From positions 1 to 52,664 of the forward strand of contig NZ_MWQY01000025.1 in assembly GCF_002087085.1 (NCBI RefSeq): a stretch of 52,664 bases of DNA, in the 5' to 3' direction. The notes beneath the pieces are model-generated. The model searched no databases. It was not told where the DNA came from and saw only the letters and a program-made list of their open reading frames with translations. Below are positions 33,763-52,664 of the stretch, piece by piece; the first letter of the stretch is position 1, and the number at the start of each line of letters is the position of its first letter. The stretch comes from Marispirochaeta aestuarii. Lineage in GTDB: Bacteria > Spirochaetota > Spirochaetia > JC444 > Marispirochaetaceae. The translations under genes and the position numbers were made by a program.

Positions 33763-33959
33763 CGGGAAGCCTCCCGGGAGGAAGGGCAGGAGATTTCGTT
33801 ACGCCTGGACACAAGGGTATACAGTCCCTCCTTACTTGAGGCGGAATCCCGCAGGGTTGCGGCAAGGAGTGTACCCAGGGGAAGAGCGAGAAGGGTAATC
33901 AGGGCCAGAGCGAGAAGAGCGTCCAGCAGGGCGTATCCTTCCTCGTGCTTGTGCTTCAT
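33759..33959 (-). CDS. gspI: Short GspI-like minor pseudopilin
   Basis: Only 66 residues. The prepilin motif is HEEGYALLDALLALALITLLALPLG in part, with cleavage expected after Gly before Tyr; position 5 of the mature form is Asp, not the usual Glu. The globular domain is almost absent, shorter than ordinary GspI (about 120). I chose the ATG at 33959 over a TTG six bases upstream. The gene lies directly after gspG and overlaps gspJ by 4 nt. Confidence 0.65.
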   Translation of the reverse strand: MKHKHEEGYALLDALLALALITLLALPLGTLLAATLRDSASSKEGLYTLVSRRNEISCPSSREASR

Positions 33960-33961
33960 TG

Positions 33962-34453: not shown

Positions 34454-34484
34454 CTCTGGTCCCTCAAATCTGCTGAAAGTAAAA

Positions 34485-35687: not shown

Positions 35688-35689
35688 AA

Positions 35690-37180
35690 TCAGAGTACCC
35701 CCGCCCGCTGCAGTTCTTCGAAGGATGACAGCCCTTCCGCAGCCAGGGTAAGTCCCCGCTGCTTAAGGCCGATCATTCCCTGTTCCCGCAGGTGATGGTC
35801 GAGGGCTGCGGATGTGCCGGCGGAAGCTATTATTCCGGCGGCTTTCCGGTCTACCATAAAGAACTCTGCCGCAGCGATCCGCCCGCGGTATCCCTGATTG
35901 TCGCAGTCCGGGCAGCCGGAAGCGTAAAACTCCTCTTCAGGGCTGGTGAGTCCCGCCCTGTGGTAAAGCTCCGTGTAAAAATCGCCCATGGGACGGGAGC
36001 TGCGGCAGGCGGGGCAGAGCCTGCGGGTAAGACGCTGGGCAATTACCCCCCGCAACACCGCAGCGATCAGGTAGGCTTCGACTCCCAGGTTGATGAGCCT
36101 GCTGACCGCAGAAACCGCGTCGTTGGTATGCAGGCTCGAAAGGACCAGGTGTCCGGTAAGGGCCGCCCGGACCGCGAGCTCCGCCGTCTCGGAATCCCGG
36201 ATTTCTCCCACCAGGATTACATCAGGGTCCTGCCTGAGCACCCGGCGCAGCAGGGTACTGAAACCGAGGCCGATGCGCTCATCCGTCTGGATCTGGTCCA
36301 CCCCGTCAATCAGATATTCCACCGGGTCCTCGATGGTGACGATCTTTATTCCTTCGCTGTTGATACTGCGCAGCATGGCGTTCAGACTTGTGGTTTTGCC
36401 GCTTCCCGTGGGGCCTGTCACCAGAACCATGCCGTGGGGGTTTTTTAAGAGCTCAGCGATGCCGGCAAGACAATCCTCCGGCAATCCCAGATCCGTCAGG
36501 CTGAAGGCCGAATCATCGGCATTGAAGATCCTCAGGACAATGGATTCCGCCCCGGCTCCGGCGGCGGTGGGAACACAGGAAACCCGGATGTCCACATTGC
36601 TCCCCGCCATGTTTACCGTAAGGCGACCGTCCTGGGGACGTCGGCGTTCCATGAGGTTGAGCCCCGCCATGACCTTGATGCGGGAGGCGAGCCCGGAAAA
36701 ACGCTCCGCCGGCAGGGTCTGATGCACCCGGAGCACGCCGTCTATGCGGTAGCGGACAATGGTTGTATCGGCGAAGGCCTCAAGGTGTATGTCCGAGGCC
36801 CGCCGCCGGATGGCTTCGATGCAGATGCTGTTTACCAGGTTGATGACCGGCGCGTCGGAAGCCAGGGCCTCCAGGTCGAGTTTATCCTTGTATCCTGAAT
36901 TGACCGGGCCGGCGGACTCATCGTCGCCGGAGCCCATAAGGCGCCCGAGCCAGGCGGAAAACTCGGCGGAATCCAGCGTTTTTACTGTAATCGGCTTCCG
37001 GTGAAAATCGCGCAGGATACGCTGCAGTTCGCAGGTGTCCCCGTCAACGGCGCCGACTGTTACGCGGCTCTCGTCTTCCTGCAGTTTAAGGACCCTGTTG
37101 GCGCGAATAAATTCCCGGCCGTACTGCTCTTTACCCCGGGGAAGAGGGGCGTAGGCAAGGAGTGAGACCGTACCATTCAT
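35690..37180 (-). CDS. gspE: Type II secretion ATPase GspE
   Basis: The hexameric ATPase that drives pseudopilus assembly. Of 496 residues, an N-terminal domain is followed by the RRASDIHLEAF block (126-136), the Walker A motif GPTGSGKTT (256-264), the Asp box VTIEDPVEYLIDGVDQ, Walker B (DPDVILVGEIRDSETAE) and a tetracysteine zinc site (CPAC and CPDC, about residues 395-430). All catalytic residues are present. The start overlaps the gspD stop by 4 nt. Confidence 0.96.
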   Translation of the reverse strand: MNGTVSLLAYAPLPRGKEQYGREFIRANRVLKLQEDESRVTVGAVDGDTCELQRILRDFHRKPITVKTLDSAEFSAWLGRLMGSGDDESAGPVNSGYKDKLDLEALASDAPVINLVNSICIEAIRRRASDIHLEAFADTTIVRYRIDGVLRVHQTLPAERFSGLASRIKVMAGLNLMERRRPQDGRLTVNMAGSNVDIRVSCVPTAAGAGAESIVLRIFNADDSAFSLTDLGLPEDCLAGIAELLKNPHGMVLVTGPTGSGKTTSLNAMLRSINSEGIKIVTIEDPVEYLIDGVDQIQTDERIGLGFSTLLRRVLRQDPDVILVGEIRDSETAELAVRAALTGHLVLSSLHTNDAVSAVSRLINLGVEAYLIAAVLRGVIAQRLTRRLCPACRSSRPMGDFYTELYHRAGLTSPEEEFYASGCPDCDNQGYRGRIAAAEFFMVDRKAAGIIASAGTSAALDHHLREQGMIGLKQRGLTLAAEGLSSFEELQRAGVL

Positions 37181-39369
37181 TGAGAGTCCTCTTCAGGGGA
37201 GGAGAAATACTTCGCGTACAGGCGCCGGGCCTCGGCCATGCGGCTGAGCTTCTTTTTCTCCGGATATTCCACATGGGGCACCACGTAGATGACCATCTCC
37301 GTGGTATCGGTGCTTTCGCTGCGGCTCTGAAACAGGCGCCCCAGAAGGGGAATGTCCCCCAGGATAGGGGTTTTACTGATGGATATGTCCTGGTCTTGCT
37401 GAATCAGGCCTCCGATGACCACGGGCTTGCCGGAAGGACTGCGCACGTGGGTGGAGACGACCTTTTCCGTGGTTGTCGGAGGATTGGTGGTTGACGACTC
37501 CGAACCCTGGCGGCTGACGGTGGCGGAGATCTCCATGGTGATCATTCCGTCCCCGGAGACCCAGCCGTTCAGGTTGATAATAAGACCGGAGGTCAGCTCC
37601 CGGGTAACCCCCGTGGATTTGAGCTCCCCGGTGTCGGAATCGATTTCGTAATCCCGGTAGCGGTATGTATTGGTATTCTGAAATTTCAAGGTCTCTCCGG
37701 ATATCCCGTTCAGGGTTGTGTCCGCCATAATGCTGGCCCTGGTTTCGCTCAGGGAGAGGCTCAGGTCCACAGCGAAAAGATAGCCGAAGTTGGAGACGAT
37801 ATCGAAGTTCAGATTCAGCAGGGAACCGATGGAACCGAGAAAGGTGGTCTCGTCGCCGTCATTGGCAACCTTGTTCTCGTAATTGGTGTTCCAGTTTAGG
37901 CCCTGTCCCTCCTGGTACTGGACCACCAGCAGGTCGTAACGGATCTGGGGAACCGGACGGTCGACAAGGGCCAGCTGCCGGAGGAACTCCTCTTTTCTGC
38001 TCTCCGGGCCCGTGTAAAAGACCAGGGTCGGATCCACGGTGGCGACGATCTCTTCCTTCGCCGCCGCCGGAGGAAGGGACTTGATAAGAGTCTCCGCGGT
38101 AATATACTTAAGCTGCACCGGAAAGTGCCCCGGGGGTGTATCCAGGGCGGCGAGGTAGGCGGAGAAATCCTCCGCCTGGGCATCGCTCACCGGCACGATA
38201 AACGAGTTCGTTCCGGGCAGAACCTTAGGTCCCAAGGCGGAAAGTCGCGGAGGCAGCAGATTCAGGGCGTCCGTAACATCCGCGTAGCCCAGGTCGAATC
38301 GGCGGTAGCTTACGTGCTGCAGGGGCCTGTCCAGGGAACGGATAAAGCTCTCCAGGGGGCCGATCTCCTCCGGGCTGCCCCGTAGAATTATGGTATTGGA
38401 CTCGGTGTCCGCCCGCATAAGGTTTGCCGCCGCCAGATCCGGGGGCAGGAGGGCGGAGACCGACTGGGCCGGAAGGTGTTCCAGGGGGAGGGAGATGGTG
38501 GTTTTGAGTTTTTTCAGGACGTCCCGCCGTTGAATCTCGAAGATATAATAGATGCCGCCGGAAACCTGATAATCACCGTTGGCCTGTTCCAGTACCAGAC
38601 GGAGCAGCTCGCTGAACTCCTTGTCCTCGAAACGGAGTTCCTCCAGCACAGCGTCTCCCCGCATCAGCAGGCTGTACTCCTCTCCTTCGGCGCTGAAAAG
38701 ATCCTTTAAAAGGTCCCGAAAACGCACCCGTTCCAGATCAAGGCTGTACAGCCCCTCGTTATTGCGGGAAAGGAGCTGACCGCGGCGGGAGGCAGGTTCT
38801 CCTGAAGCTGTACGCCGGATATAGAAATAGTCATCTTCTGTTTCCAGTTCATGCTCCGAAAGCCGGGCAGTAAGGACCTCCAGTGCGGCGGCCGGAGACA
38901 GGTCGTCGATGTGGATTGTAAGCCGTTCATTAGGCAGAGCGTCAAACAGCACCGTTTTGCCCATGGCCCGGGAGAGAGCCCGCAGCAGCAGCCGGAGTTC
39001 AACATCCTCTCCGTGAAGGCTGACTGTTCCTGCCTCTTCGTTCCAGCGGGCATCGATGCGGGAGACGTAGATAAGCCCGTCCCGCCTGATGCCGTAGAGC
39101 TTATAGGTATCCAGGAAGACCCGCAGGGCGGTATCGAAATTCATGGTGCTGAAATGGTAGCTGGCGCTGCCGGAGACCGTCTCGTCGGGGATAATGGAAA
39201 CCTCCCCGATGTCTGCCAGCACCATGAGGATATCGGTGATCGGCTGGTTGCGGAAGGAGAGGCGGTCGAGCGTGAGGGGGGCTGCGCCAGTTGTATCCAG
39301 ATCCTGAGAGAACCCAGGGATGAAAGAAAAAACAATAATTATACTTACTATTCGGTATTTCCAATTCAT
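37177..39369 (-). CDS. gspD: Type II secretion secretin GspD
   Basis: GspD forms the outer-membrane channel. The 730-residue protein has a signal peptide (residues 1-22), N0/STN-like and N1-N2 periplasmic domains, and the C-terminal secretin domain with VISGGLIQQDQDISISKTP-like core (GGLIQQ), PILGDIPLLGRLFQS and YVVPHV. It is not a lipoprotein and no separate pilotin is visible. It is the first gene of a ten-gene run gspD-E-F-G-I-J-K-L-M-C with almost no intergenic space. The promoter lies in the shared region upstream, facing away from the tat-rhs operon. Confidence 0.95.
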   Translation of the reverse strand: MNWKYRIVSIIIVFSFIPGFSQDLDTTGAAPLTLDRLSFRNQPITDILMVLADIGEVSIIPDETVSGSASYHFSTMNFDTALRVFLDTYKLYGIRRDGLIYVSRIDARWNEEAGTVSLHGEDVELRLLLRALSRAMGKTVLFDALPNERLTIHIDDLSPAAALEVLTARLSEHELETEDDYFYIRRTASGEPASRRGQLLSRNNEGLYSLDLERVRFRDLLKDLFSAEGEEYSLLMRGDAVLEELRFEDKEFSELLRLVLEQANGDYQVSGGIYYIFEIQRRDVLKKLKTTISLPLEHLPAQSVSALLPPDLAAANLMRADTESNTIILRGSPEEIGPLESFIRSLDRPLQHVSYRRFDLGYADVTDALNLLPPRLSALGPKVLPGTNSFIVPVSDAQAEDFSAYLAALDTPPGHFPVQLKYITAETLIKSLPPAAAKEEIVATVDPTLVFYTGPESRKEEFLRQLALVDRPVPQIRYDLLVVQYQEGQGLNWNTNYENKVANDGDETTFLGSIGSLLNLNFDIVSNFGYLFAVDLSLSLSETRASIMADTTLNGISGETLKFQNTNTYRYRDYEIDSDTGELKSTGVTRELTSGLIINLNGWVSGDGMITMEISATVSRQGSESSTTNPPTTTEKVVSTHVRSPSGKPVVIGGLIQQDQDISISKTPILGDIPLLGRLFQSRSESTDTTEMVIYVVPHVEYPEKKKLSRMAEARRLYAKYFSSPEEDSQ

Positions 39370-39429: not shown

Positions 39430-39484
39430 ATCGTAAAATGTGAAAAAAGGAAAGATTTGGGTAATTATAAAAAGTAAAAAAATC

Positions 39485-39513
39485 TTGTGATATCACAAAA
39501 CCAGTGCTACTAT
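39485..39513 (+). promoter_or_regulatory. Promoter of the tat-rSAM-rhs operon with palindromic operator
   Basis: A -35 box TTGTGA (39485-39490) and a -10 box TACTAT (39508-39513) are 17 bases apart, with TGC before the -10 as an extended element. The -35 box is the left half of a perfect 14-bp palindrome, TTGTGATATCACAA (39485-39498), so a dimeric repressor bound there would block RNA polymerase. It lies 32 bases ahead of the tatA start. Confidence 0.68.
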
Positions 39514-39545
39514 TATGTCCAGAAAGTTTATTTAAGGAGATTGAT

Positions 39546-39731
39546 ATGATCGGAGCCGGTGAAGCCGTCATTCTTGGCGGGGTGTTTATTCTTATCTTTG
39601 GGGCCTCCCAAATTCCGAAAGTCGCTCGATCCGTTGGAGAAGGCATTACGGAGTTAAAGAAATCTATCCGGGAAGCGAAGGATATCGATCTCGATGATCC
39701 TTCCCTGGGCGATAAGACGAAGAATAATTAA
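39546..39731 (+). CDS. tatA: Twin-arginine translocase subunit TatA
   Basis: TatA oligomers form the pore for folded proteins with RR signals. The 61-residue protein has the short N-terminal membrane helix, the glycine hinge FGASQIPKVARSVGEG, where FG is the family signature, and an acidic amphipathic tail. The start ATG follows AAGGAG. It is the first gene of an AT-richer operon tatA-tatC-tatB-rSAM-unknown-rhs-WG lipoprotein. Operon placement with an RR-signal cargo suggests a dedicated Tat system. Confidence 0.93.
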   Translation: MIGAGEAVILGGVFILIFGASQIPKVARSVGEGITELKKSIREAKDIDLDDPSLGDKTKNN

Positions 39732-39745
39732 CAATCGTTTTATAT

Positions 39746-40480
39746 ATGTCCCAGTGTTATTCTTCGGTGCGTCCTGTTCGCAAGGTCATGCCTTTTTGGG
39801 ACCATGTTTATGAACTACGTAACCGAATTGTTCTGGTTATTACATGCTCTGCTCTTTTCTCGGTTGTAAGTTACGTTTTCTACCCTGATGCCGTTGTTCT
39901 GATTCAGTCTATTTTGCGGGAAGAATTATACGTTACCTCAATAACTGAAGGATTCCTGACTCGGCTGAAAACAAGTCTGCTTTTTGGAATTTATTGTTCC
40001 ATTCCTCTCCTTGGTATTCAGATCTCGTTGTTTGCAGCTCCTGCTCTTTCCGGCTCCGAACGTTTTTATCTTGTCGCCGTGTTGGTCTCGTCTTTTATTC
40101 TGATGTCTGCGGGTCTCCTTTTTGCACTTAAGGCTGTTCTGCCGATAAGCCTTAGATTTTTGCGTTCAGAGGTGTTTTACCCAGGCGATGTCAGCAGACT
40201 GCTTTCTTATACGCTTTATCTGCAGTTCTTTTTTCAGTTTATAATAGGTTTTGGTCTGTTCTTTCAATTTCCCATTGTAATAATTATGCTTCTTAAATTT
40301 AGAATTATTGATACTTCTTTTCTGCTCAGGAATTTTAAATACTTTATCGGCATAATCTTTTTGGTCTCCGCAGCTGTTACTCCGCCGGATATAGTATCCC
40401 AGATTTTACTGGCCCTTCCAATGACACTATTGTACGGGGTGTGCATTGTGCTTGGAAAGGTCTTTCGAATGGATGATTAG
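39746..40480 (+). CDS. tatC: Twin-arginine translocase subunit TatC
   Basis: TatC recognises the RR signal. The protein (244 residues from 39746, 230 from an ATG at 39788) has FWDHVYELRNRIV at the N-terminus, matching the conserved xxHLxELRxRL motif, and six membrane helices. The P-loop F(S/A)AP segment reads ISLFAAPALSGSERFYL, and TPPDIVSQILLALPMTLLYG matches the conserved TPPD block near the end. No strong ribosome-binding site precedes either start; the ATG at 39788 has a short AAGG and gives the usual family N-terminus. The stop overlaps the next gene. Confidence 0.93.
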   Translation: MSQCYSSVRPVRKVMPFWDHVYELRNRIVLVITCSALFSVVSYVFYPDAVVLIQSILREELYVTSITEGFLTRLKTSLLFGIYCSIPLLGIQISLFAAPALSGSERFYLVAVLVSSFILMSAGLLFALKAVLPISLRFLRSEVFYPGDVSRLLSYTLYLQFFFQFIIGFGLFFQFPIVIIMLLKFRIIDTSFLLRNFKYFIGIIFLVSAAVTPPDIVSQILLALPMTLLYGVCIVLGKVFRMDD

Positions 40481-40736
40481 AATGTTTGGTATTGGATTTG
40501 GTGAATTATTACTCGCCTTGCTGGTGGTTTTTCTGGTATCCCCCAAGGACTTTCCAAAATTCATGAAGAAAGCGGGAGAGTTTATTGCTACAGGAGACAG
40601 AATCCGTAAAGAGATGTTCGCTTTGCGAAACGAGGTAGTGTCCATAGCGGAAAATCTGGAGATTGATGAAGAAACCGTAAAAAAGAGAAAAAAAGATAAT
40701 CAGGAAGAAGTCAATACGAAAACGGAGAATGGATGA
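40473..40736 (+). CDS. tatB: TatB-like subunit
   Basis: An 87-residue TatA/B-family protein. The core FGIGFGELLLALLVVFLVSPKDFPKFMKKAGEF matches in part the TatB pattern of a short helix, a Pro-containing hinge and an amphipathic helix; Glu in the helix (GFGELL) is typical of TatB. A long charged tail follows. Starts at 40473 (chosen, overlapping tatC by 8 nt) or 40482 are both possible. The stop TGA is directly followed by the ATG of the radical SAM gene. TatB presence means a complete TatABC type system. Confidence 0.82.
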   Translation: MIRMFGIGFGELLLALLVVFLVSPKDFPKFMKKAGEFIATGDRIRKEMFALRNEVVSIAENLEIDEETVKKRKKDNQEEVNTKTENG

Positions 40737-41912
40737 ATGTTGCGCAATCCCTGGATATACATTACGGAAGCGTGTAATCTCAGATGTAAATATTGTTTTA
40801 ATCCCAATAAAGTATTGAGTCGTGCAAACACGATTACATTATCGAACTTCAAACAAATTATTGAGAATATCCTGTTCTATTCTGATATCTCTGAAGATAT
40901 GCCCTTGCGGATTGTTTTATTCGGCGGAGAACCGACCTTATATCCGGAATTGTTGAAGGAATTGATGGACTATGCCTATGGACGGCTTGAAGGGAAGGTT
41001 CAGTTTCATTTAATAACCAACGGGACAAATATAACCGCAGTCGGAGATTGCATGATTGAGTACAGTCAGAAGTCTGCTTTAAGTATACAGCTTTCGATTG
41101 ATGCTGCTCCGGAAAATCTTACGCTAAGGGTCGGAGATGATAAACGACAAATCTATGAAGACTCGTTAAGAAAAACATTTGATTTTCTGCTGGATAACTC
41201 GATCAGGTTTTCTATTCGAGCAACCCTATCCCCGGAACAAGTTGAAGATTTATGGGAGAATTTCAGGTATTTTGTGTCCGTCTATGATGAATCCGACAAA
41301 ATTACATCCAATATAACTTTTTCACCTGATTTTCTTACTGGAAAGTGGAGCGAAGATAATTTCTCTCGTTTAGATGAACAGGTTGATAAAATTGTTTCCT
41401 GTATTACTAATGAATATGTAGAGAAAAAAAGGATCTTACACGAAACAAATACAAAAAGAGCATTTACTAATCTTTACCGGAAAAAAAACAAAACTACACC
41501 ATCGCGGCGTACCTTCTGCGGCTTTTCCAATAATCTGTTTTCAATAGCTCCCAACGGCGATGCATTTGCCTGTCATCGGGTATATGAGAACACGCGTTTA
41601 CAGTTTGGCAATTTTCTTGATGGAACAATCGATATCGCGAAATTCAACGGAATCTATGCTGCATATAACAACGCCCAGTTTATACGACCAAACAAACGAA
41701 TAGGGATAGAGAAGTGCAGTGACTGTGAAATACAATGGAATTGTGCATCTGTATGTCCGGCCGAGAATGCACACAGCACCAGCAGCGCTGAAATCGAGTA
41801 TGAGTGTGATTATGTGATGTACCGTATGCAGAAATCCTTTGCTGTACATGTTGAGAAGTATATGACTTCTCTGCTGGAAGATGAAGAATATAAAAAAAGA
41901 ATGGTTAATTAA
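40737..41912 (+). CDS. Radical SAM/SPASM peptide-modifying enzyme
   Basis: A 391-residue radical SAM protein. The SAM cluster motif is C13-x3-C17-x2-C20, with GGEP at 63-66. The C-terminal SPASM domain follows the published pattern closely: C261-x12-G274-x4-C279, then C327-x2-C330-x5-C336-x3-C340-x16-C357, enough ligands for two auxiliary [4Fe-4S] clusters. Known SPASM enzymes modify peptides or proteins (sactipeptides, ranthipeptides, sulfatases, quinohemoprotein amine dehydrogenase). No CxPxR sulfatase motif is in the neighbours. The natural candidate substrate is the Cys-rich head of the Rhs protein two genes on. It is AT-richer than the housekeeping genes. No RRE (PqqD-like) domain was recognised inside it. 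Confidence 0.9.
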   Translation: MLRNPWIYITEACNLRCKYCFNPNKVLSRANTITLSNFKQIIENILFYSDISEDMPLRIVLFGGEPTLYPELLKELMDYAYGRLEGKVQFHLITNGTNITAVGDCMIEYSQKSALSIQLSIDAAPENLTLRVGDDKRQIYEDSLRKTFDFLLDNSIRFSIRATLSPEQVEDLWENFRYFVSVYDESDKITSNITFSPDFLTGKWSEDNFSRLDEQVDKIVSCITNEYVEKKRILHETNTKRAFTNLYRKKNKTTPSRRTFCGFSNNLFSIAPNGDAFACHRVYENTRLQFGNFLDGTIDIAKFNGIYAAYNNAQFIRPNKRIGIEKCSDCEIQWNCASVCPAENAHSTSSAEIEYECDYVMYRMQKSFAVHVEKYMTSLLEDEEYKKRMVN

Positions 41913-41927
41913 GGGAAGAGTGATTTG

Positions 41928-42725
41928 ATGGTTATTCAGAAAATAGACTTTCGGACCTTGGATAGGGAAAACATAAAGACAATGGTTACCAGGATCGGGA
42001 ATAACAAAAAACCTGTTTGCAAACATATTCTAATGATATCCGTAGCGCACCCGGCAGATTTAACAGGCTTGGGAACAATATCCGGTCATTTTTTTAGAAA
42101 GATTTTAGAGATCCCGGCAGGACATTTATCTGCTGTTTCCAATGAACAGCTTTCTGGATTCGACGAAAGTGTGATCAACTGCTTCGGCATGGATGACGTC
42201 GCAGAGATATCCAGGAATGATCTATTATTCTCGAATAATGTTATTTCAATTGTATATAAAGGAGACATCTCTTCTGCTGAAGCGGTCGTCACCGTTCTTG
42301 ATACTTTCGAGCACAAACCCATCAAATCTCTGATAATTGAATCGGAGAAGGTCTGCCGGGACCACAGCGATAAACAGAAATGTATAGAGAATATCTTGAA
42401 AAAAAAGGATTGGCTATCAACTATCGATTTTCAATGCTGGTATCTGAACGAACTGGTTCCGGCAAAATGTGTCTTCCTGGAACAGGCTGACCTGGAAGTG
42501 TTTATCAATGGTGAACGTGCTGTTTGCCCACGCCTAACAGATGAAGGTTTTGTGCACATCACTAAATCTGAAGTCGACACGTTAAAACGCAAGCTTATTG
42601 TAGCACGACTGGAACAGTATTTGATGATGCAAAAAAGGTTTTCGTGCATAGAGTGCCGTAAGGTATTTGGCACGGTATCTCATACGATGCCAGTAAATTT
42701 AAAGGAGTGTATTTATGAAAAATGA
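41928..42725 (+). CDS. Unrecognised Cys-containing protein between radical SAM and Rhs
   Basis: A 265-residue soluble protein I cannot assign. It has ten cysteines (31, 85, 143, 152, 170, 181, 200, 240, 243, 261), with FSCIECRKVFG forming a CxxC near the C-terminus. There is no signal peptide or membrane helix. The N-terminal half alternates strands and helices (KHILMISVAHPADLTGLG; VISIVYKGDISSAEAV). The start is ATG 41928, eight bases after AGGGAAGAG, and the stop overlaps the rhs start by 11 nt, so it is made together with Rhs. Candidate roles are a recognition partner of the radical SAM enzyme or a Tat-signal chaperone of the REMP kind; both are inference from position. Confidence 0.75.
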   Translation: MVIQKIDFRTLDRENIKTMVTRIGNNKKPVCKHILMISVAHPADLTGLGTISGHFFRKILEIPAGHLSAVSNEQLSGFDESVINCFGMDDVAEISRNDLLFSNNVISIVYKGDISSAEAVVTVLDTFEHKPIKSLIIESEKVCRDHSDKQKCIENILKKKDWLSTIDFQCWYLNELVPAKCVFLEQADLEVFINGERAVCPRLTDEGFVHITKSEVDTLKRKLIVARLEQYLMMQKRFSCIECRKVFGTVSHTMPVNLKECIYEK

Positions 42726-45700
42726 AAAGGAATCATCGGATAAAAGTCAGGATATCGATCAGAATATTGACAGACGAGAGTTTCTATCCATTAGTCTAAA
42801 GACGATACTCGGTTCCTCTGTTGGCATTGCATCGTTTATTTCAACAAAAGATACGTTATATGCAGATGATAGAGGCTGCGCTGACTACTGCGGAGGAGAT
42901 TGTATTACCTATGGGAGCGGAGGATGTACGTGTGATGGGGATGATGACAGTTGCAATGACAGTTGTGATGATTGTTCTTCCGACTATTCAGAAGAAATAG
43001 CCGAAGCTCAAGAAGCCATAGCCGCTGCGGAAGAGAAAATTGAAGACGCACAGGCGGCTTATGACGAGGCGATCGCCGCCGGTGATGAAAGGGCTGTGCA
43101 GGCAGCGCGGGATGAAATCCGGGCAGCTGAGGCTTCCCGGGAAGAAGCCGCTGAACGGGTAAGCGAAGCAGAGGCAAAGCAACGGGAAGCCAAGGAAGCC
43201 GCCGCACAGTTTCGGGCAAAATTGGCTCAGACCCAGAACCAGGCTAACAGTACCGTTACCGGCGATCCGGTACGTATAGCCACAGGGGTGTTCCATACGG
43301 AAGTAACTGACCTGTCAATACCGTATCTCGGTTCAAACATTACCTTGCAGCGTCAGTATGAAAGCGATAAAACCTACGGTAAATCTTTCGGTACCGGCTG
43401 GAACTTCTCTTACGATACCCGCATCATCCTTGGTGTGGACCCTGATGCTGCTGAAACTGCGGAACTACTGACAGGATTCGCCGAAACTCAGCGCAGCGAC
43501 TACTATCAGAGGCAAACCGGTCTTGCTGGCGCAACAAGCTCCATGAACACGGCCAAAACAAAGGTCGATGCCGCCCAGGCTACGATTGCGGCTGCACTGC
43601 AGTCAGCCCAGACCGCCCTGGCCAAGGCTCGAGCATCCCACAGCTCATCGCTTATTGCACAGGCCCAGGCGCTGGTGAATCAGATTTCCGGTTCCGGTGG
43701 CTTGACCGGCCAGGCGGCTGAGGTTGAAACCAGGGTCGATGCTGTTTTGACCGAGCTTGCCGATTCAGACGCGACTCTGGAAGAGCTGGATACGCTATGC
43801 GTGGAGCTGGAGAATCTTGCATCGGATGCTAACGACAGAAACGACTATGCAAGTGCAGCTGCGGAACGAAACCTCTACGTAACCGACGGAAACGAACCGC
43901 CTTCCTTTCTCAATACCGGCAACGGTACCTGCACCTGGGTGGATCAAAGTGGAGTTCCCCATTATTACACTCTTGACAAGGCTCCGGACTACAGTAGTGA
44001 TGTACAGTATACGGATGGCAGCAGAAATTACTTTCCCCAGGGCGCCCTCGGCATCCCCCAGCTGCCTATCGATGACGTGTTGCATCTGAACTCACACGGA
44101 ACATGGACCCTTGTGCGCAAGGACCTGCATCATTTTGAGTTTTCGTTTCTCGGGTTGCTCAGCTCGATCAGTGACGCCAACAATAATCAGCTTGCATGTA
44201 CGTACAGCAAGGGTTTGCTGTCCGTGATAAATGATGATTTTGGGAGAACGATCAGGATAACACGGAGCGGAAAAAAGATCTCTGCAATAATATCACCCGA
44301 AGGGTATTCCATCAGTTTTAGCTATAACCTCGACGGAATGCTTGCATCCGTTACCGACCCTGAGGGCGATACTATATCCTACGAATACGACGGTTCGCTT
44401 CTTACCGCTATTGTCAAACCGGATGGCAAACGACGGCGATATATCTATGAATCCCTGTCCGGGACCATGGTTGTTAGCCAGGCAATCGATGAAGAGGGCA
44501 TGAGCGAATATTTCCGCTATTACCCTGCTTCCGGCTACAGCGAATATGAAAACGCTTCCGGTATTGTTGAACGACACTACTACAACGAGCGCAAGCTGGA
44601 AACAAAGGTCGAATACGGTGACGGCGGGACCATCTCCATGGAGTATGATGAGAACAACAACCTGATCAAGCGTACCAACGAGGTCGGTGAAACCTATCAT
44701 TTTACCTATGACGGGCGACGTAACCTGATTGAGTCGATTGACCCACAGGGTCATGCCCAAAAATGGACCTATAACGACATAGACAAGGTAAGCTCCTATA
44801 CTGATCGCCTGGGACGGACTACCGGCTATACCTACGATTCGAAAGGCAATCTTATCGTGCAAGAACTCCCCGACGGCGCTGAAATACATTACGAATATAA
44901 TGATCGAGGACAACGTACCAAAACCACCGACCCCCGCGGCAATTCAACCCTGTTCAGGTATGATTCCCATGGCTACCCGGCATCGGAAACAAGCCCCGAC
45001 GGTACAGTTCGCCGTTTTAAGAACGACCTAACCGGGAATATCCTGGAAGTCACCGATCAGGCAGGATATACAACCACCTATACCTACCGCAAAGACAAAA
45101 AGCTGGTTTGCCTGACCGATCCGGAAGGCAACACTGAAACCTACGAGTACAACAAGCGTAAAGACCTTGTAGCCAAAACCGACAAACGCGGCAATCGTAC
45201 AGAGTTTACTTACGATGGACGGCATCTATTGATCAAGGCAACCAACCCCCTGGGGGAAACCGCAGAGTACAGCTATCGGGCCGACGGCAGGATGATACAA
45301 AAACTCATCGATAAAAAAAGCACCACCAGCTACACTTATGATTCCCGCGGCAACCTGGCCTCCGTAACGCAGCTGGAAACCAACAGCACCGTCCGTTACG
45401 AATATGACGCAGCCCAGCGCCTTACCAAAGTAACCGACCCTAACGGAAACGCAACCTGGTACGACTACACCCTGCTCGGCGATATCGCCAGAGAGGAAAA
45501 CGCCCTGGGTAACATCCGAAGTTTTACCTACGACGCTGAACAAAACCGTACCTACCAGACCGACTTTGCCGGAAACACAACAGAATACCGCTATGATGTC
45601 CGTAACCGCCTGACCGAGTTAATCGACCCCGACAACAAACGGGAACAGTATACATATGACCTAACCGGCAACCGCACCGCGGTAATCGACAAGAACGGCA

Positions 45701-48700
45701 ACACTACGGTTTTCGAATACGACGCCCTGAACCGGCTTATCAAACAGACCGATCCCTTGAACAACACAATCAGGTATGAGTATGAGCCCAGAGGCTTGGT
45801 GAGCAAGCGGACCGACCGGAACGGCGGAACCGTTCTGTTTGCCTACAACTCCCTCGGCACAATCGTAACCGCCACCGACCCTGCAGGCAACACAATCGAA
45901 ACCACCTACAACGAGACCTCCCAGCCCCGTACCCGGAAAGACCGGAACGGTAACATTACAGCTTTCGAATATGACTCCTTAAACCGTCTGATTATAACCC
46001 GCGACCCCTACGGCCACGAAACCAGGCGCAGCTACAATTACCTCGGCCTTGTCGCCGCCATAACCGACCCCCTGGGCAACACCCGTACTTTCGACCATGA
46101 CCCTGCAGGCCGCCTGGTAAAGACAACTGACCCCTTAGGTGGAACGAAACAGTATACGTACGACCCTGCCGGCAACCTTATTTCGTACCAGGATGAAATG
46201 AAGCGGGAAACCGGCTATACCTACGATCAACTCAATCGACTGAAAAGCAGCACCAATGCCCTGGGAGAAAATTACAGCTACACCTACGATGTTAACGGCA
46301 ACCTCATAAGGGAAACCGACCCGGAAGGCAGCGCCTACCAGTATGAATATGACAAACTGAACCGTCTGAAAAAAGAGATAAACCGCCTGGGCGCAGCACA
46401 AACCTACACCCGGGACCCGGTCGGGAACCTGCTGAGCAAAACAGACTTCAACGGAGATCTCACCGCCTATACCTACGACCCGGTAGACCGCCTAATAAAC
46501 ACAAGCTTTGCAGACGGCAGTACCAAAATCTACAGCTATGATGCTGAGGGCAACCTTACCTCAGCCGAGAACCCAGAAAAGCAGCTGGCCTTCAGCTATG
46601 ACCCGGTAAACCGCCTGAGTGAAGTCTATGACTCCAGCGTCGACGACACCGTACGCTACACCTATGATGCCGAAGGCAATCGCCTCTCCACTCACTGGAA
46701 CGAGGGCAACCGCACCATAAACCGCAGCTACGGTAAAGCCAACGAACTGTTAACCGTAACCGATCCCGACGGCACCACCACCGCTTTTACCTACGATGCC
46801 CTGCTGCGGGAAACCGAATGCAAACGTCCGAACGACGTGGTAACAGAAACAGTCTACGACCCTGCAGGAAGGATAACCAGCATAAAGAACTTCGAAGACA
46901 AACACTGGCGGGATACCCTCTTAAGCTCGTTTGCCTACCTCTACAACGCTGCCGGGGAACGTAGGCATCAGATAGATGAAGAGGGGAACATCGAAACTTA
47001 CCAGTACGATGCAGTGGGACGCATTGCCGAAGCTCAGTATCCGTTCAACAGCGGAAAACCTGCCGAAGACTTTGATCAGCGCCTGCGTTTCGGCCTCTAT
47101 CCTGAAGAGGGGAGTAGTAGCTCTCATAACCACGGACATGGACACCACAACGACGAGCGTTACACCTTCAACCTGCCCCGAACCCCGGACAACGACTTTA
47201 TCAACAAGCTCAAAGATATTGCCGAACCCCAGGAAGAGGTCTTCCGGTACTACCGGAAAAAGAAAAAGGATTACCACCCGCGATGGCGCATTCAGCCCGG
47301 TGACGGTGCAACCCGGTTTGCCGCGCGGCTGTCTCTGGATCAAACTTCGCGGGAACAACTCCGAACAGCCTATCAGGACCTGACCGGCAGCCGCAGGCAC
47401 TTCGACGCAGACCCGTGGGTATGGACTGAAAACTTTACCTACGACAGCAGAAACAACCTCACCAGCAAAGCCAACGGCTGGGGAGCCGTACCCTTCAGCT
47501 ACAACGCTGCCAATGAGTTAACACAAGCCGGAGAGAGAACCTACACTCATGATGCCAACGGCAACCTTACCCGGGAAGCCTTAAATGAGGTAAGCGCCGA
47601 CTACAGCTACACCCCGGAGAACCGTATCGAACAGATAGAAACCGAAATTGAAGCCTTCATGAGTCACCACTGCGATGGTGAAACCGGGGTACGCTATACC
47701 TATGATTCCCTGGGACGGCGAAGCTCTCGGACGGCCTATACAACCAAGAGTAATCATGGCTGGCACAACGAGATTGAGTGGAACAAGGAATCGAACCAGA
47801 GTTACCTCTATGACGGTCTGTCTTTCAATGTATTAGCAGAATTAAAAGACACCCAGTTTAGGGTGGACACTCACGGAAGAACTCATCGCCGCACCTCACG
47901 TTACCAGTGGCAACCTGTTAGTGAATACCTCTACGGCAATGGGAGCAGGCTGATCAGTAAAACCGCCTTTGCCACAAACGAACGCTTCGGCAATCGCTAC
48001 CCCCGTCATACCGACACAGACTATTATCTGCAGGATGTGTTGGGATCGGTAGTCGGGATTACCGATGAACGGGGGAACCAGACGGAGGCCTACAGCTTTG
48101 ATGTATGGGGCAACCACTATGATCGACCCAACCAGACAAACAGCACTCATACCGATGCTGGCTGGAATGCGTTGCCGGCCACGTTATTCGGCTTCAACGG
48201 GAAGAAGTTTGATCCGAAGGTCGGACTGTATGATTATGGTTTCAGGGATTATAAGCCTGCCATTAACAGGTGGACCACCATAGACCCAATACGCGCGGGG
48301 AAGAACTGGTACGCCTATGTGGAGAATGATCCGGTGAATTGGGTTGATTTGTGGGGGTTGCTGCCGGAGGTGGGAGGGACTGGTCAGGTTGATGATCCGT
48401 TGGAACGAGCAATTATTGATAATTTAGACTTCGATGAACCTGGTAGCAAGTGTGATGAATTTTGTACCGAAGTTATGGATGATGCAGGCTTGACTCCCAA
48501 TGATTGGCCTGATCCTGATGATTATAAAGTTGGTGAAAACCCTGAAGATATACCTAATTATATTGATCATTATAGTAGTCAGACACAAGATGTACCAAAT
48601 ACTGGTGCAAACGCAGTGATGATGGAAACCGGTCACCCAGCAGAGCATATGGGTATTGTAGATGTTGAAGAGGATGGTTCTATTTCGGGAGCTCATTATA

Positions 48701-48795
48701 GTGGTGGAGAAGTCGAACAATTCGAATATGACAATCAAAATGATTTTGAAGACGCTTTTGTATATGAAGATTTTCATTATCTTCCTTTGGAGTAG
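42715..48795 (+). CDS. Tat-exported Rhs/YD-repeat protein with Cys-rich head and cysteine-amidase-like tip
   Basis: A 2026-residue Rhs protein. In order: twin-arginine signal (R20-R21 in DRREFL, hydrophobic stretch 24-43, likely cleavage after A50); Cys-rich, Asp-rich segment with C55, 59, 63, 71, 73, 80, 84 and 87; coiled coil (about 93-175); DUF6531-like start of the Rhs shell (about 181-240); an Ala-rich helical insert (about 242-386); roughly thirty YD repeats; a His-rich loop near 1470; and the Rhs core end IRAGKNWYAYVENDPVNW to DLWGL at 1882. The 144-residue tip is more AT-rich and has SKCDEFCTEVMDDAG (C1913) and EHMGIVDVEEDG (H1978), like NlpC/P60 or CHAP amidases. Ribosome-binding site AAAGGAG. 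An antibacterial effector role is inferred. Confidence 0.88.
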   Translation: MKNEKESSDKSQDIDQNIDRREFLSISLKTILGSSVGIASFISTKDTLYADDRGCADYCGGDCITYGSGGCTCDGDDDSCNDSCDDCSSDYSEEIAEAQEAIAAAEEKIEDAQAAYDEAIAAGDERAVQAARDEIRAAEASREEAAERVSEAEAKQREAKEAAAQFRAKLAQTQNQANSTVTGDPVRIATGVFHTEVTDLSIPYLGSNITLQRQYESDKTYGKSFGTGWNFSYDTRIILGVDPDAAETAELLTGFAETQRSDYYQRQTGLAGATSSMNTAKTKVDAAQATIAAALQSAQTALAKARASHSSSLIAQAQALVNQISGSGGLTGQAAEVETRVDAVLTELADSDATLEELDTLCVELENLASDANDRNDYASAAAERNLYVTDGNEPPSFLNTGNGTCTWVDQSGVPHYYTLDKAPDYSSDVQYTDGSRNYFPQGALGIPQLPIDDVLHLNSHGTWTLVRKDLHHFEFSFLGLLSSISDANNNQLACTYSKGLLSVINDDFGRTIRITRSGKKISAIISPEGYSISFSYNLDGMLASVTDPEGDTISYEYDGSLLTAIVKPDGKRRRYIYESLSGTMVVSQAIDEEGMSEYFRYYPASGYSEYENASGIVERHYYNERKLETKVEYGDGGTISMEYDENNNLIKRTNEVGETYHFTYDGRRNLIESIDPQGHAQKWTYNDIDKVSSYTDRLGRTTGYTYDSKGNLIVQELPDGAEIHYEYNDRGQRTKTTDPRGNSTLFRYDSHGYPASETSPDGTVRRFKNDLTGNILEVTDQAGYTTTYTYRKDKKLVCLTDPEGNTETYEYNKRKDLVAKTDKRGNRTEFTYDGRHLLIKATNPLGETAEYSYRADGRMIQKLIDKKSTTSYTYDSRGNLASVTQLETNSTVRYEYDAAQRLTKVTDPNGNATWYDYTLLGDIAREENALGNIRSFTYDAEQNRTYQTDFAGNTTEYRYDVRNRLTELIDPDNKREQYTYDLTGNRTAVIDKNGNTTVFEYDALNRLIKQTDPLNNTIRYEYEPRGLVSKRTDRNGGTVLFAYNSLGTIVTATDPAGNTIETTYNETSQPRTRKDRNGNITAFEYDSLNRLIITRDPYGHETRRSYNYLGLVAAITDPLGNTRTFDHDPAGRLVKTTDPLGGTKQYTYDPAGNLISYQDEMKRETGYTYDQLNRLKSSTNALGENYSYTYDVNGNLIRETDPEGSAYQYEYDKLNRLKKEINRLGAAQTYTRDPVGNLLSKTDFNGDLTAYTYDPVDRLINTSFADGSTKIYSYDAEGNLTSAENPEKQLAFSYDPVNRLSEVYDSSVDDTVRYTYDAEGNRLSTHWNEGNRTINRSYGKANELLTVTDPDGTTTAFTYDALLRETECKRPNDVVTETVYDPAGRITSIKNFEDKHWRDTLLSSFAYLYNAAGERRHQIDEEGNIETYQYDAVGRIAEAQYPFNSGKPAEDFDQRLRFGLYPEEGSSSSHNHGHGHHNDERYTFNLPRTPDNDFINKLKDIAEPQEEVFRYYRKKKKDYHPRWRIQPGDGATRFAARLSLDQTSREQLRTAYQDLTGSRRHFDADPWVWTENFTYDSRNNLTSKANGWGAVPFSYNAANELTQAGERTYTHDANGNLTREALNEVSADYSYTPENRIEQIETEIEAFMSHHCDGETGVRYTYDSLGRRSSRTAYTTKSNHGWHNEIEWNKESNQSYLYDGLSFNVLAELKDTQFRVDTHGRTHRRTSRYQWQPVSEYLYGNGSRLISKTAFATNERFGNRYPRHTDTDYYLQDVLGSVVGITDERGNQTEAYSFDVWGNHYDRPNQTNSTHTDAGWNALPATLFGFNGKKFDPKVGLYDYGFRDYKPAINRWTTIDPIRAGKNWYAYVENDPVNWVDLWGLLPEVGGTGQVDDPLERAIIDNLDFDEPGSKCDEFCTEVMDDAGLTPNDWPDPDDYKVGENPEDIPNYIDHYSSQTQDVPNTGANAVMMETGHPAEHMGIVDVEEDGSISGAHYSGGEVEQFEYDNQNDFEDAFVYEDFHYLPLE
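45658..46289 (+). repeat. Block in the rhs core duplicated at 50411-51042
   Basis: About 632 bp of YD-repeat sequence is nearly identical to 50411-51042, with scattered single-base differences and no frame change. Similarity starts abruptly at GACCTAACCGGCAAC and then falls to a more distant family level after GGAGAAAA-TTACAGC-type sequence near 46270-46289. Such blocks allow homologous exchange between rhs copies. Confidence 0.85.
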
Positions 48796-48799
48796 ACTT

Positions 48800-49861
48800 A
48801 TGAAAATATGGAAGAGTGCATACATAATTTTAGTTATATTATCCTGTAGCTGTAGTGTTTTCCCTCAAAATGATCTGAGAAGAATAAGATTTGAATTTGA
48901 AAGCTCAACTGGATATTTGAATTCAGATTTAGGGGTTGTTATACCAGCACAGTTTGATTCCGGGACAGATTTCGTCGATGGTATAGCAGTAGTAAAAGAT
49001 GAGAAAGGCTATCATGTAATAAATGAAAAAGGTGAAATTGTTTTTCGTACAGAGGCGGATTACGTTGAAAAACCAAATAATGGAATGATCCTATTTAAAA
49101 TGGATGGAGTATATGGTTTTTATGACTACACTGGTAAAGTAAAACTAGAGGGATATTTGCATGCAAAATCGTTTAGTGAGGATTATGCAATAGTAAGAAC
49201 AACACAAAAAGCATATTATATAAACAAACATGGCGAAGATGTTTTTCCAGATTTGGTTATATCAGGAGGAGGAAATTTTTCTAATGGGTATGCTGTTTTT
49301 TGGGTCAAAACAAATGAGGGCATACAAAAGGGGTTAATAAATAATAGTGGAGAGATTATACTTCCACCAAAGTTTACTATTCTGGGTGAGTTTTCAGATG
49401 GGTTGTGTGAAGCGTCATTTAATGACAAAGTGGGGTACATCGATTTAAGTGGAAGATTCGTTATTCCACCTAAATATAATTATGGTTTCGCTTTTAATCA
49501 AGGAATTGCTGCAGTTCAATATCGTACGTTCGAAAGAAAACAACCGTTCTATCCATTCTGGCGACTTATTAATAAAAGTGGTGATATAGTAAAGGATTTA
49601 TCTGAAGATGTTGTAGTGTTTTCTGATTTTATTGAAAATTATGCAATAATTGGCGTTTTTGACAACACGCGAGAAAAAATGCTATACGGATATTTAAAAA
49701 AAAATGGGGAAACATTAATCAATCCGATATTTGATGACGCTGATGTTTTTCATGATGGCTATGCAGTCATAGAGTACAAAGGTCGTGATGCACTTCTTGA
49801 TAAATTTGGAACAATTATTTATTTGAGGGATATATTAAATCCTCATGTCACTTCGCGGTAA
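48800..49861 (+). CDS. WG-repeat lipoprotein, candidate immunity protein
   Basis: A 353-residue exported protein. The leader KSAYIILVILSCSCSV has a loose lipobox with cysteines at 16 and 18. The rest is WG-type beta repeats of about 40-50 residues, seen in GVVIPAQFDSGTDFVDGIAVV, GEIILPPKFTILGEFSDGLCE, GRFVIPPKYNYGFAFNQGIAA and GETLINPIFDDADVFHDGYAV. The start is the ATG at 48800, four bases after the rhs stop; an upstream in-frame start lies inside rhs and would hide the leader. The gene is strongly AT-rich. A gene directly after an Rhs tip is usually its immunity gene, and a lipid anchor would place it in the periplasm, where a peptidoglycan amidase acts. This role is inferred. Confidence 0.8.
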   Translation: MKIWKSAYIILVILSCSCSVFPQNDLRRIRFEFESSTGYLNSDLGVVIPAQFDSGTDFVDGIAVVKDEKGYHVINEKGEIVFRTEADYVEKPNNGMILFKMDGVYGFYDYTGKVKLEGYLHAKSFSEDYAIVRTTQKAYYINKHGEDVFPDLVISGGGNFSNGYAVFWVKTNEGIQKGLINNSGEIILPPKFTILGEFSDGLCEASFNDKVGYIDLSGRFVIPPKYNYGFAFNQGIAAVQYRTFERKQPFYPFWRLINKSGDIVKDLSEDVVVFSDFIENYAIIGVFDNTREKMLYGYLKKNGETLINPIFDDADVFHDGYAVIEYKGRDALLDKFGTIIYLRDILNPHVTSR

Positions 49862-49884
49862 CCGAAACGATGAAAATATTCTTA

Positions 49885-49922
49885 CTGACTATTTTAGTAA
49901 TAGACACGGAATAGTCAGTTTT
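49885..49922 (+). terminator. Terminator of the tat-rhs operon
   Basis: CTGACTATT (49885-49893) pairs perfectly with AATAGTCAG (49910-49918), followed by TTTT. It lies 24 bases after the WG lipoprotein stop and is the first such hairpin seen after tatA, so it probably ends the seven-gene transcript. Confidence 0.65.
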
Positions 49923-50392
49923 ATAACGACTTTATTTAGTGTGCGAGGAATAATTTTAATGCTGTTCAACAAGCACCGGCATAAAGGTGAAAAAGTTGCT
50001 AAAAACTTGTGATCATTGACAGGTAAGAGAAAGGAAGAAAATCTGGAGAAAGAACCGTCGGGGTAGGCGAAAAGAATACGTTTACTTCTGACGTTTCTTT
50101 CTTCCTTATTTCCGCGTATTCGCATACAACGCGATTGGCGCGGATAAAGAATGTGGATGCAAATAATGGTATGGAAGTTGAAAGTACATGAAGACAGAAC
50201 CCACCGCGTTGGAGATTGCCGGCAAGGGATTGGAGGGGCGCCGAAGGCGGACCCCGCAGGGACTGAAAGGTCCGAGGAGGCCGGAGCGATAGCGGAGCCC
50301 CGGAAAGCCCGGTCCTGCACCTACTTTTCAATGTTGAAAAGTAGGTGCAGGGATGCCGCCAGACAGAACCGCGCAAATCCGAAAAAAAATCC
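49923..50392. other. Non-coding, hairpin-rich spacer between the two rhs regions
   Basis: No convincing gene lies here. The segment 50230-50312 is GC-rich and made of short hairpins, for example GGGGCGCC-GAA-GGCG-GA-CCCC and GGAC-TGAAAG-GTCC. AGACAGAACC occurs at 50192-50201 and again at 50361-50370, flanking that block and the long palindrome at 50314-50351. CGCGG-type inverted pieces occur near 50110-50140 and 50400. A short frame across 50151-50417 is a translation of this repeat and is not accepted as a gene. Confidence 0.6.
50314..50351. repeat. Perfect 18-bp inverted repeat with 2-base loop
   Basis: CCTGCACCTACTTTTCAA (50314-50331) is followed by TG and then its exact reverse complement (50334-50351). 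No T-run follows, so it is not a standard terminator. It lies 60 bp before the point where homology to the first rhs gene begins. Confidence 0.9.
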
Positions 50393-52664
50393 GTGCGAAT
50401 CCGCGGTATCGACCTAACCGGCAACCGTACCGCGGTCATCGACAAGAACGGCAACACTACGGTTTTCGAATACGACGCCCTGAACCGGCTTATCAAACAG
50501 ACCGATCCCCTGAACACAACAATCAGGTATGAGTATGAGCCCAGAGGCCTGGTGGGCAAGCGGACCGACCGGAACGGCGGAACCGTTCTGTTTACCTACA
50601 ACTCCCTCGGCACAATCGTAACCGCCACCGACCCTGCAGGCAAGACAATCGAAACCACCTACAATGAGACATCTCAGCCCTGTACCCGGAAAGACCGGAA
50701 CGGTAACACTACAACCTTCGAGTACGACCCCTTAAACCGTCTGATTATAACCCGCGACCCCTACGGCCACGAAACCAGGCGCAGCTACAATTACCTCGGC
50801 CTTGTCGCCGCCATAACCGACCCCCTGGGCAACACCCGAACTTTCGACCATGACCCTGCAGGCCGCCTGGTAAAAGTAACTGACCCCTTAGGTGGAACGA
50901 AACAGTATACGTACGACCCTGCCGGCAACCTTATTTCGTACCAGGATGAAATGGAGCGGGAAACCGGCTATACCTACGATCAACTCAATCGACTGAAAAG
51001 TACTACCAATGCCCTGGGAGAAAACTACAGCTACACCTACGACGAGAACGGCAACCTGAGGGCGGAAATCGACGGCGAAGCGAAAGCCCACAGCTATGAA
51101 TACGACAAACTGAACCGCATTATACAGGAGATAGACCGGCTCGGAAACACCCAGAGTTACACCTACGACGCGGAAGGGAACATCCTGAGTAAGAAAGATT
51201 TTAACGGTGATCAGTCAGAATACTTCTATGACAAACTGAACCGCAGAATCGAAACCCGTTTTGCGAACGGAGAGACCAAACGTTTTGAATATGACCCGGC
51301 AGGCAACCTTGTAGGCGCGGAAAACGGCGAAAAAGCCTTGAGCTTCGCCTATGATCCGGTAAATCGTCTGACAGAAGCAAGCGACGGCCTGCTGAACGAA
51401 ACAACCCGCTACGCCTACGACCCTGCCGGGAACCGCATCCGCGCCGAAAGGAAGAAGGCCAATCGCATAACAACCTACACCTATGGAAAAGCGAACGAGC
51501 TGCTCTCGGTTACCGACCCGGACGGCAAAACCACCGGCTACCGTTACGACGCCCTTGGACGCGAAACGTATAGAACGACCCCGAACGACGTGGTAACAGA
51601 AACAGTCTACGACCCTGCAGGAAGGATAAGCGCCATAAAGTCCTACGAAAAGAAGCGGGGACACAACACGGTCCTCTACTCCTTTGCTTACCTCTACAAC
51701 GAAGCGGGAGAGCAGACATTCCGGATAGACGAAAAGGGCGAGGTCATGAGCTTTGCCTACGACGAAGCGGGACGCATAGCCGAAGTGCGCTACCCCTTTG
51801 AAAGCGGGAAGCCCGAGACCGACTTTGAACAGCGGCTGAACTTCGGCCTCTATCCTGAGGAGAAAACGAGTACGTCCAGAGGAAACAAGCGGCATGGGGA
51901 TGGTGACGAAGGAATGAGCTTTGCGCTGCCGCAGGTAGACAATGACCACGAGCTTAAAGAACGGCTTAAGGAACGTTCCGTCCCCAGGATGGGGGTCTAC
52001 AAAAAGTACCGGGGATTATCGTCGCATGAACATCCCCGCTGGCATGTGACCCCGGGTGAGGGAGCGACGCCCTTCGCGACCAGACTGAACCTTGATCCTG
52101 AAACAAAGAACCAACTCCAGGACGCCTATCGGGAGATCAACCCTTACAGCCGCCGTTTCAACGACCATCAGTATCAATGGACCGAGACTTTCGGCTACGA
52201 TACACGAAACAATCTTTCTACAAGCGCCAACGGCTGGGGGAGGGTGGACTACAGCTACGATGAAGCCCACCGGCTAAAGCAGACAGGAAACAGAAACTAC
52301 CTGCATGACAAAAACGGCAACCTGATAAAAGAGTACCTGGGCGAAGAAGACGGCCCCCTAAGCGCTGACTATACTTATACGCCGGAAAACCGCATAGCCC
52401 AAATCGAAACACACTTCGAAGGCTTCCTGCCCGGACAACTGGAAGCCGACAGCGGAGTCCGCTACACCTACGACGCCCTGGGCCGGCGAAGCTCCCGGGC
52501 ATCCTACCTGAGCAAAAGCTATGGTTTCAGTAAACAACTGGAATGGAACAGGGAGAGTACGGAGACCTACTTATACGAAGCCCTGAGCTTTGACATCTTG
52601 GTGGAATATCGAGATACTGAGTATGAAGTGAACCGACGAAGCAGACACTTCTTCCCATCCTTCT
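50393..52664 (+). CDS. Orphan, N-terminally truncated Rhs core (runs off the window)
   Basis: The frame is open from 50345 to the end of the window without a stop. It encodes Rhs YD repeats equivalent to residues 982 onward of the first Rhs protein. It has no signal peptide, no Cys-rich head, no DUF6531 start and no plausible ribosome-binding site; GTG at 50393 is the nearest possible start and is given only as a boundary. The first 630 bp are nearly identical to the first rhs gene, the remainder is a diverged homologue, including its own version of the loop with GLYPEEKTSTS and the shell end. It fits an orphan rhs cassette serving as a recombination donor of a different tip, or a pseudogene. 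The tip itself lies outside the window. Confidence 0.8.
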   Translation, partial: MRIRGIDLTGNRTAVIDKNGNTTVFEYDALNRLIKQTDPLNTTIRYEYEPRGLVGKRTDRNGGTVLFTYNSLGTIVTATDPAGKTIETTYNETSQPCTRKDRNGNTTTFEYDPLNRLIITRDPYGHETRRSYNYLGLVAAITDPLGNTRTFDHDPAGRLVKVTDPLGGTKQYTYDPAGNLISYQDEMERETGYTYDQLNRLKSTTNALGENYSYTYDENGNLRAEIDGEAKAHSYEYDKLNRIIQEIDRLGNTQSYTYDAEGNILSKKDFNGDQSEYFYDKLNRRIETRFANGETKRFEYDPAGNLVGAENGEKALSFAYDPVNRLTEASDGLLNETTRYAYDPAGNRIRAERKKANRITTYTYGKANELLSVTDPDGKTTGYRYDALGRETYRTTPNDVVTETVYDPAGRISAIKSYEKKRGHNTVLYSFAYLYNEAGEQTFRIDEKGEVMSFAYDEAGRIAEVRYPFESGKPETDFEQRLNFGLYPEEKTSTSRGNKRHGDGDEGMSFALPQVDNDHELKERLKERSVPRMGVYKKYRGLSSHEHPRWHVTPGEGATPFATRLNLDPETKNQLQDAYREINPYSRRFNDHQYQWTETFGYDTRNNLSTSANGWGRVDYSYDEAHRLKQTGNRNYLHDKNGNLIKEYLGEEDGPLSADYTYTPENRIAQIETHFEGFLPGQLEADSGVRYTYDALGRRSSRASYLSKSYGFSKQLEWNRESTETYLYEALSFDILVEYRDTEYEVNRRSRHFFPSF

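Follow-up and report, generated by a model that had tools for sequence, protein, structure and literature searches.

A private TatABC set, a radical SAM/SPASM maturase and an Rhs protein with a candidate CXXX-repeat radical SAM target module in one operon of a spirochaete

We analysed a 52,664-nucleotide stretch of Marispirochaeta aestuarii DNA (the window) and found an operon in which an Rhs protein, a candidate toxin, appears to be fused to a Tat-exported Cys-Xaa-Xaa-Xaa (CXXX) repeat radical SAM target module. The same operon carries a maturase and a private TatABC set and adjoins T2SS genes, a combination that, judged from sequence, appears to be new. On balance we lean towards the explanation that the operon makes an Rhs polymorphic toxin with a radical SAM-modified CXXX-repeat N-terminus and exports it through the private TatABC and then the T2SS. 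That the product is a RiPP-like polymorphic toxin, with an N-terminus cross-linked by its own maturase, a Tat set serving one cargo and release by the T2SS, we hold to be a serious possibility, a shade below an even chance. The initial annotation of this DNA had overlooked the adjacent T2SS, the pairing of the toxin tip with a candidate immunity gene, and the target module at the Rhs N-terminus, which from its homology would be the biochemical link that ties the genes of the operon together.

The seven genes lie head to tail on the forward strand from 39546 to 49861, with gaps of at most 15 bp and one 11-bp overlap, which bears out the set first described; gene order and spacing support one operon-like unit. 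They encode TatA (39546-39731, 61 amino acids), TatC (39746-40480, the second copy in the genome), a TatB-like protein (40482-40736), a radical SAM/SPASM peptide maturase (40737-41912) that has PapB and the CXXX-repeat maturases among its relatives, P5, a candidate partner protein without a family match (41928-42725), the Rhs protein of 2026 amino acids (42715-48795) and a WG-repeat lipoprotein (48800-49861). From tatA to the WG gene, the successive intergenic distances are 14, about 0, 0, 12-15, -11 and 4 bp. For tatA, we took the ATG at 39546, which has a good ribosome site, over the less likely GTG listed at 39504. A start of the WG gene at 48662 was an ORF-finder artefact, and 48800 was used.

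The unit had been placed between one strong promoter and one hairpin terminator. The promoter was not supported, the promoter-like matches of a consensus scan being at chance level. The terminator is plausible, as a long stem (-13.2 kcal/mol) followed by the T residues of TTTTAT lies at 49884-49923 on the forward strand, although matches to the terminator consensus were at chance level and did not flag this hairpin. Upstream of tatA, at 39484-39497, there is a 14-bp palindrome, TTGTGATATCACAA, present once in the window; we claim no regulator for it, since the copy in the sister species described below differs by one base and is imperfect. The richness in A and T that had been remarked upon is real but uneven along the operon: tatC, tatB and the genes for the maturase and P5 have a G+C of 38-41%, the WG gene has 33% and the Rhs core 52% (gspD and gspE, 57-61%). 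Further downstream, on the same strand, an N-terminally truncated second rhs core (50418-52664) is cut by the end of the contig at 52664; the sister species has an orphan rhs core with which it shares 96% identity.

The N-terminus of the Rhs protein has the RR signal that had been read there (DRREFL), and 8 of its 16 cysteines fall within residues 55-87, directly after this Tat signal, a clustering that arose in none of 100,000 random placements. Signal and Cys/Asp-rich stretch together (42727-42984, forward strand) match TIGR04117, 'Cys-Xaa-Xaa-Xaa repeat radical SAM target', with an E value of 5.8e-7 and 29.5 bits, below the cut-off of 50; the corresponding N-terminus in the sister species matches with an E value of 7e-4, also under the curated cut-off. 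When we surveyed 395 genomes of the class Spirochaetia and 14 control genomes, TIGR04117 matches were found in five genomes of the class, the window's own among them, and in none of the controls. In two genomes (G460 and G504) the matches are free-standing proteins that have an xRRxF Tat signal, mostly with a lipobox, and 13 to 71 cysteines, mostly at each fourth residue. The signal IDRREF is common to these targets and the window Rhs, while the sister Rhs reads IDRKEF. Against a profile built from ten free-standing targets, the Cys part of the window Rhs scored higher than all but one of 1000 shuffles and the signal part higher than 1000 of 1000, a share of which may stem from features general to Tat signals. 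Because of the TIGR04117 match and of the free-standing Tat-signal CXXX relatives, the window Rhs gives the impression of an Rhs shell joined to a radical SAM target of a known, Tat-exported type. As a separate observation, at least ten free-standing Tat-signal CXXX-repeat proteins occur in G504 and G460 (loci L060-L069), several without a maturase in the fetched neighbourhood; and in another genome (G390, L067 7932-9386) a CXXX-repeat peptide without a Tat signal is directly followed by a radical SAM enzyme.

The tie between a Tat set and this operon, proposed at the outset, was strengthened by the finding that the TatABC is a second one. TatA scores 46.8 bits with PF02416 (cut-off 21) and just under the cut-off with TIGR01411; TatC scores 142.9 bits with TIGR00945 (cut-off 132.7); and the TatB-like protein falls below the cut-off of TIGR01410 (35.9 against 56.5 bits, E value 8e-9). 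The other, housekeeping TatC of the 4.2-Mb genome is encoded on another contig (C1), where it has a TatB-like neighbour. In a comparison of six genomes, a second TatC was confined to the two species that carry the Rhs fusion. There is a single TatC each in G393, G460 and G504, the latter two being the genomes with free-standing targets. A more distant relative, G411, has two TatC proteins, and in the regions read there was no Rhs next to either; one TatC gene of this genome (L027 4665-5471) immediately follows T2SS genes in the same orientation, which is another link between Tat and T2SS.

The operon diverges from a T2SS operon on the reverse strand (30104-39369), which encodes GspD (37177-39369), GspE, GspF, GspG and accessory genes. 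The matches to Secretin, T2SSE, T2SSF and T2SSG are all over their cut-offs; the accessory genes below 33762, which matched no family, owe their names to their position. In another genome of the genus (G393), this T2SS site is occupied instead by a Sec-signal SpvB/TcdB-like Rhs operon without tat or maturase genes. This locus (L025 864-14478) encodes a 3388-aa Rhs protein, with TPR and lipoprotein genes, and is likewise divergent from the T2SS operon. In G475, which belongs to another family, an Rhs gene that can be aligned to the window Rhs, its 5' end lost at a contig end, stands directly upstream of genes for a prepilin peptidase and GspD. A separate contig of 3.2 kb from this genome carries a maturase of the same family, with 33% identity; P5 was not found in the genome. 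No Rhs was seen beside the T2SS in G411, nor in G399 within the short stretch available.

Dependence of the window Rhs on the T2SS is suggested by gene order, and adjacency is no proof of secretion. The Rhs might instead be exported by Tat alone and stay at the cell envelope, acting through contact or as an adhesin; the T2SS would then be an incidental neighbour. Since a lipobox mostly follows the Tat signal in the free-standing relatives, that family is probably membrane-anchored, which would suit such a protein. The window Rhs, however, has no lipobox, and Rhs-type genes turn up again beside the T2SS in G393, where the Rhs is a different one, and in G475, a member of another family. We therefore regard an envelope-bound Rhs as unlikely, though not so unlikely as to be put aside, and favour passage through the T2SS.

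In the maturase, residues 13-20 form the CX3CX2C motif, and the seven-Cys SPASM pattern is complete (residues 261-357). Its best NCBIfam match is NF047865 (PapB), at 153 bits against a cut-off of 340; with TIGR04115 it scores 54.4 bits (cut-off 350), where a true member, at locus L064, reaches 432 bits. Weak viperin-type matches from a defence-system library were set aside, because neither the complete SPASM domain nor the surrounding operon suits a viperin. PapB joins Cys to Asp or Glu and accepts Cys-Xn-Asp with n of 0-6 (PMC9413430). The window Rhs stretch, whose eight cysteines are irregularly spaced, has three CX3C pairs, and the sister Rhs, which bears a (CSGD)n array, has ten. Repeated C-X3-D/E of the PapB type is lacking, this spacing being found at one of the 8 cysteines in the window and one of 15 in the sister Rhs; an Asp or Glu lies within 0-6 residues of 7 of the 8 and of all 15, respectively.

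P5 had no match in domain and family profile searches. Its low-confidence model has a beta/alpha barrel topology, and the nearest solved folds include DesII, SkfB and SuiB (Z 8-9) as well as unrelated barrels. One guess from this model is that P5 may be a clusterless radical-SAM-like barrel partnering the maturase; a profile comparison did not support it as a sequence homologue of that enzyme.

Tat commonly exports proteins loaded with cofactor, and Cys/Asp-rich stretches can bind metals. The N-terminal cysteines could accordingly hold a metal or cofactor or form disulfides, with Tat needed for a cofactor loaded in the cytoplasm and the radical SAM enzyme acting elsewhere. The TIGR04117 match, however, belongs to a family of radical SAM targets and spans the signal and the Cys repeats together, one free-standing relative is encoded directly before the genuine TIGR04115 maturase, and the operon encodes no other candidate substrate. 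We find such a role for the cysteines doubtful, marginally more so than retention of the Rhs at the envelope, and prefer modification by the maturase.

The operon appears not to be a chance neighbourhood, because the whole set recurs in a sister species (G394, same genus), at the same site beside T2SS genes in the same arrangement. Between the two loci, the proteins are 93-95% identical for GspD, GspE and GspF, 100% for TatA, 91% for TatC and 93% (78/84) for TatB. The maturases are 46% identical, the P5 proteins 30% and the Rhs proteins 52%, the last value climbing to 78% just ahead of the Rhs tip; the nucleotide similarity stops inside the start of the maturase gene. Since these three are only 30-52% identical, against 91-100% for TatABC and the T2SS proteins, the maturase, P5 and Rhs look as if they had been exchanged as one unit, which is what a fit between enzyme and target would lead one to expect. 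In the sister species, the maturase gene contains an in-frame TAA (L007 13915-13935) and the Rhs signal has RK in place of RR, with the Rhs reading frame still open; because of this, the modification may be dispensable there, or the locus may be decaying. That the tat and maturase genes were acquired by chance beside an rhs hot spot and are now decaying, as the low G+C of tat, maturase and P5 genes, this stop codon and the lack of the system in most sampled spirochaetes might suggest, is improbable, since the window has no broken frame, the two species retain 91-100% identity in TatABC, and maturase, P5 and Rhs have diverged jointly.

Beyond its N-terminus, the Rhs protein has the YD-repeat shell and core domain of its kind (RHS_repeat, 443 bits; DUF6531; TIGR03696). 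A variable C-terminal tip, a candidate toxin domain (CT; 48361-48792, forward strand), follows DxxGL, and behind it stands the gene for the WG-repeat lipoprotein (PF14903, 123 bits). The sister species has the tip (93% identical) and the WG gene (96%) together in a single orphan cassette; the two move as a pair, an exchangeable tip with its cognate downstream gene. Because of this cassette, the WG lipoprotein is likely the immunity protein for CT; toxicity of the tip and its neutralisation by the WG protein are candidate roles. The active Rhs of the sister species has a different tip, behind which lie orphan tips and candidate immunity genes. One of the orphan tips is an M23 peptidase. The candidate immunity proteins beside these tips carry signal or membrane sequences, as expected if the toxins pass through the producer's periplasm. 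A structural search with CT gave no useful match for its fold (the model was poor, pLDDT 43); a Cys/His pattern recalling papain-like peptidases and a weak C39-like match (E value 0.66) are leads only. Delivery by a T6SS was rejected, there being no PAAR match in the Rhs.

From the above we infer the chemistry, the dependence on Tat and T2SS, the toxicity and the role of P5 as follows. In the cytoplasm the SPASM maturase, aided by P5, would join the N-terminal cysteines to residues near them, probably Asp, by cross-links of the thioether type, although the exact chemistry could differ. Since the N-terminus would then be cross-linked and the Rhs shell folded, the protein would be unfit for threading through Sec and would leave by the private TatABC, by way of its RR signal. 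In the periplasm the WG lipoprotein would neutralise the tip and so guard the producer, and the folded toxin would cross the outer membrane through the neighbouring T2SS and act on competing bacteria. Counting against this explanation are the scores below cut-off for TIGR04117, TIGR04115 and PapB, the stop codon and RK signal in the sister species, the irregular set of eight cysteines in the window, and the split contigs and missing P5 in G475. If true, it would join RiPP-type radical SAM chemistry, Tat export and polymorphic toxins, fields that are usually separate. A private TatABC tied to one cargo would make Tat specificity directly testable, and the CXXX-repeat radical SAM targets, for which we came across no function, would get a concrete context. 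In addition, the N-terminus of an Rhs shell would be chemically modified, and the modification may serve anchoring, plugging or release.

The maturase family occurs in 3 of the 395 genomes of the class, and P5 was found in none of 393 genomes of the phylum beyond the window's own, in a sample that did not include the sister species. Recurrence in several lineages, which would have spoken for a system, was found in part: the full operon is present in two species of one genus, but in the third lineage, G475, the maturase is on one short contig and an Rhs beside T2SS genes on another. Conversely, rhs loci consistently without tat and radical SAM genes had been named as evidence against a system. 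Many other Rhs genes of the same genomes lack both, and wherever the start is legible the N-terminus is Sec-type or of another kind; the tat and maturase genes are thus linked with this type of Rhs, not with Rhs generally. A scan of genome contigs with a two-sequence maturase alignment gave one unrelated locus, no relatives of the operon were found in viral contigs, and tblastn against plasmids and phages returned distant radical SAM proteins or nothing.

The statement that no described system joins this set agrees with the open literature searched, where we found none, although absence there is no proof. Two elements are already known: Tat signals on CXXX-repeat radical SAM targets, as free-standing proteins of other spirochaetes, and secretion of an Rhs bacteriocin by a T2SS. 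The latter, Bcn-A of Xanthomonas perforans, is T2SS-dependent, as a gspD (xpsD) mutant lost activity (PMC7259588). It resembles the window protein in being an Rhs toxin; in contrast, the paper mentions no Tat or twin-arginine signal, and the role of the T2SS in our case is suggested by gene order. With the CXXX-repeat radical SAM systems (TIGR04115 maturase; TIGR04117, TIGR04114 and TIGR04118 targets) the window shares a Cys-repeat target, a SPASM maturase and the Tat signal seen on spirochaete targets, but here the target is the N-terminus of a 2026-aa Rhs, the maturase scores under the TIGR04115 cut-off, and the operon has its own TatABC. The PapB/PapA ranthipeptide system is alike in that, of the NCBIfam models, PapB fits the maturase best, and in the adjoining Cys and Asp; the window differs in that the maturase is under the PapB cut-off, C-X3-D/E is found once, and there is no small precursor peptide. 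Finally, the conserved shell, the variable tip after DxxGL, the downstream immunity candidate and the orphan tips are those of the Rhs/YD polymorphic toxins with orphan CT/immunity cassettes; unlike these, the window Rhs has neither a PAAR/VgrG link nor a Sec signal, and it carries a Tat signal and a putative CXXX module.
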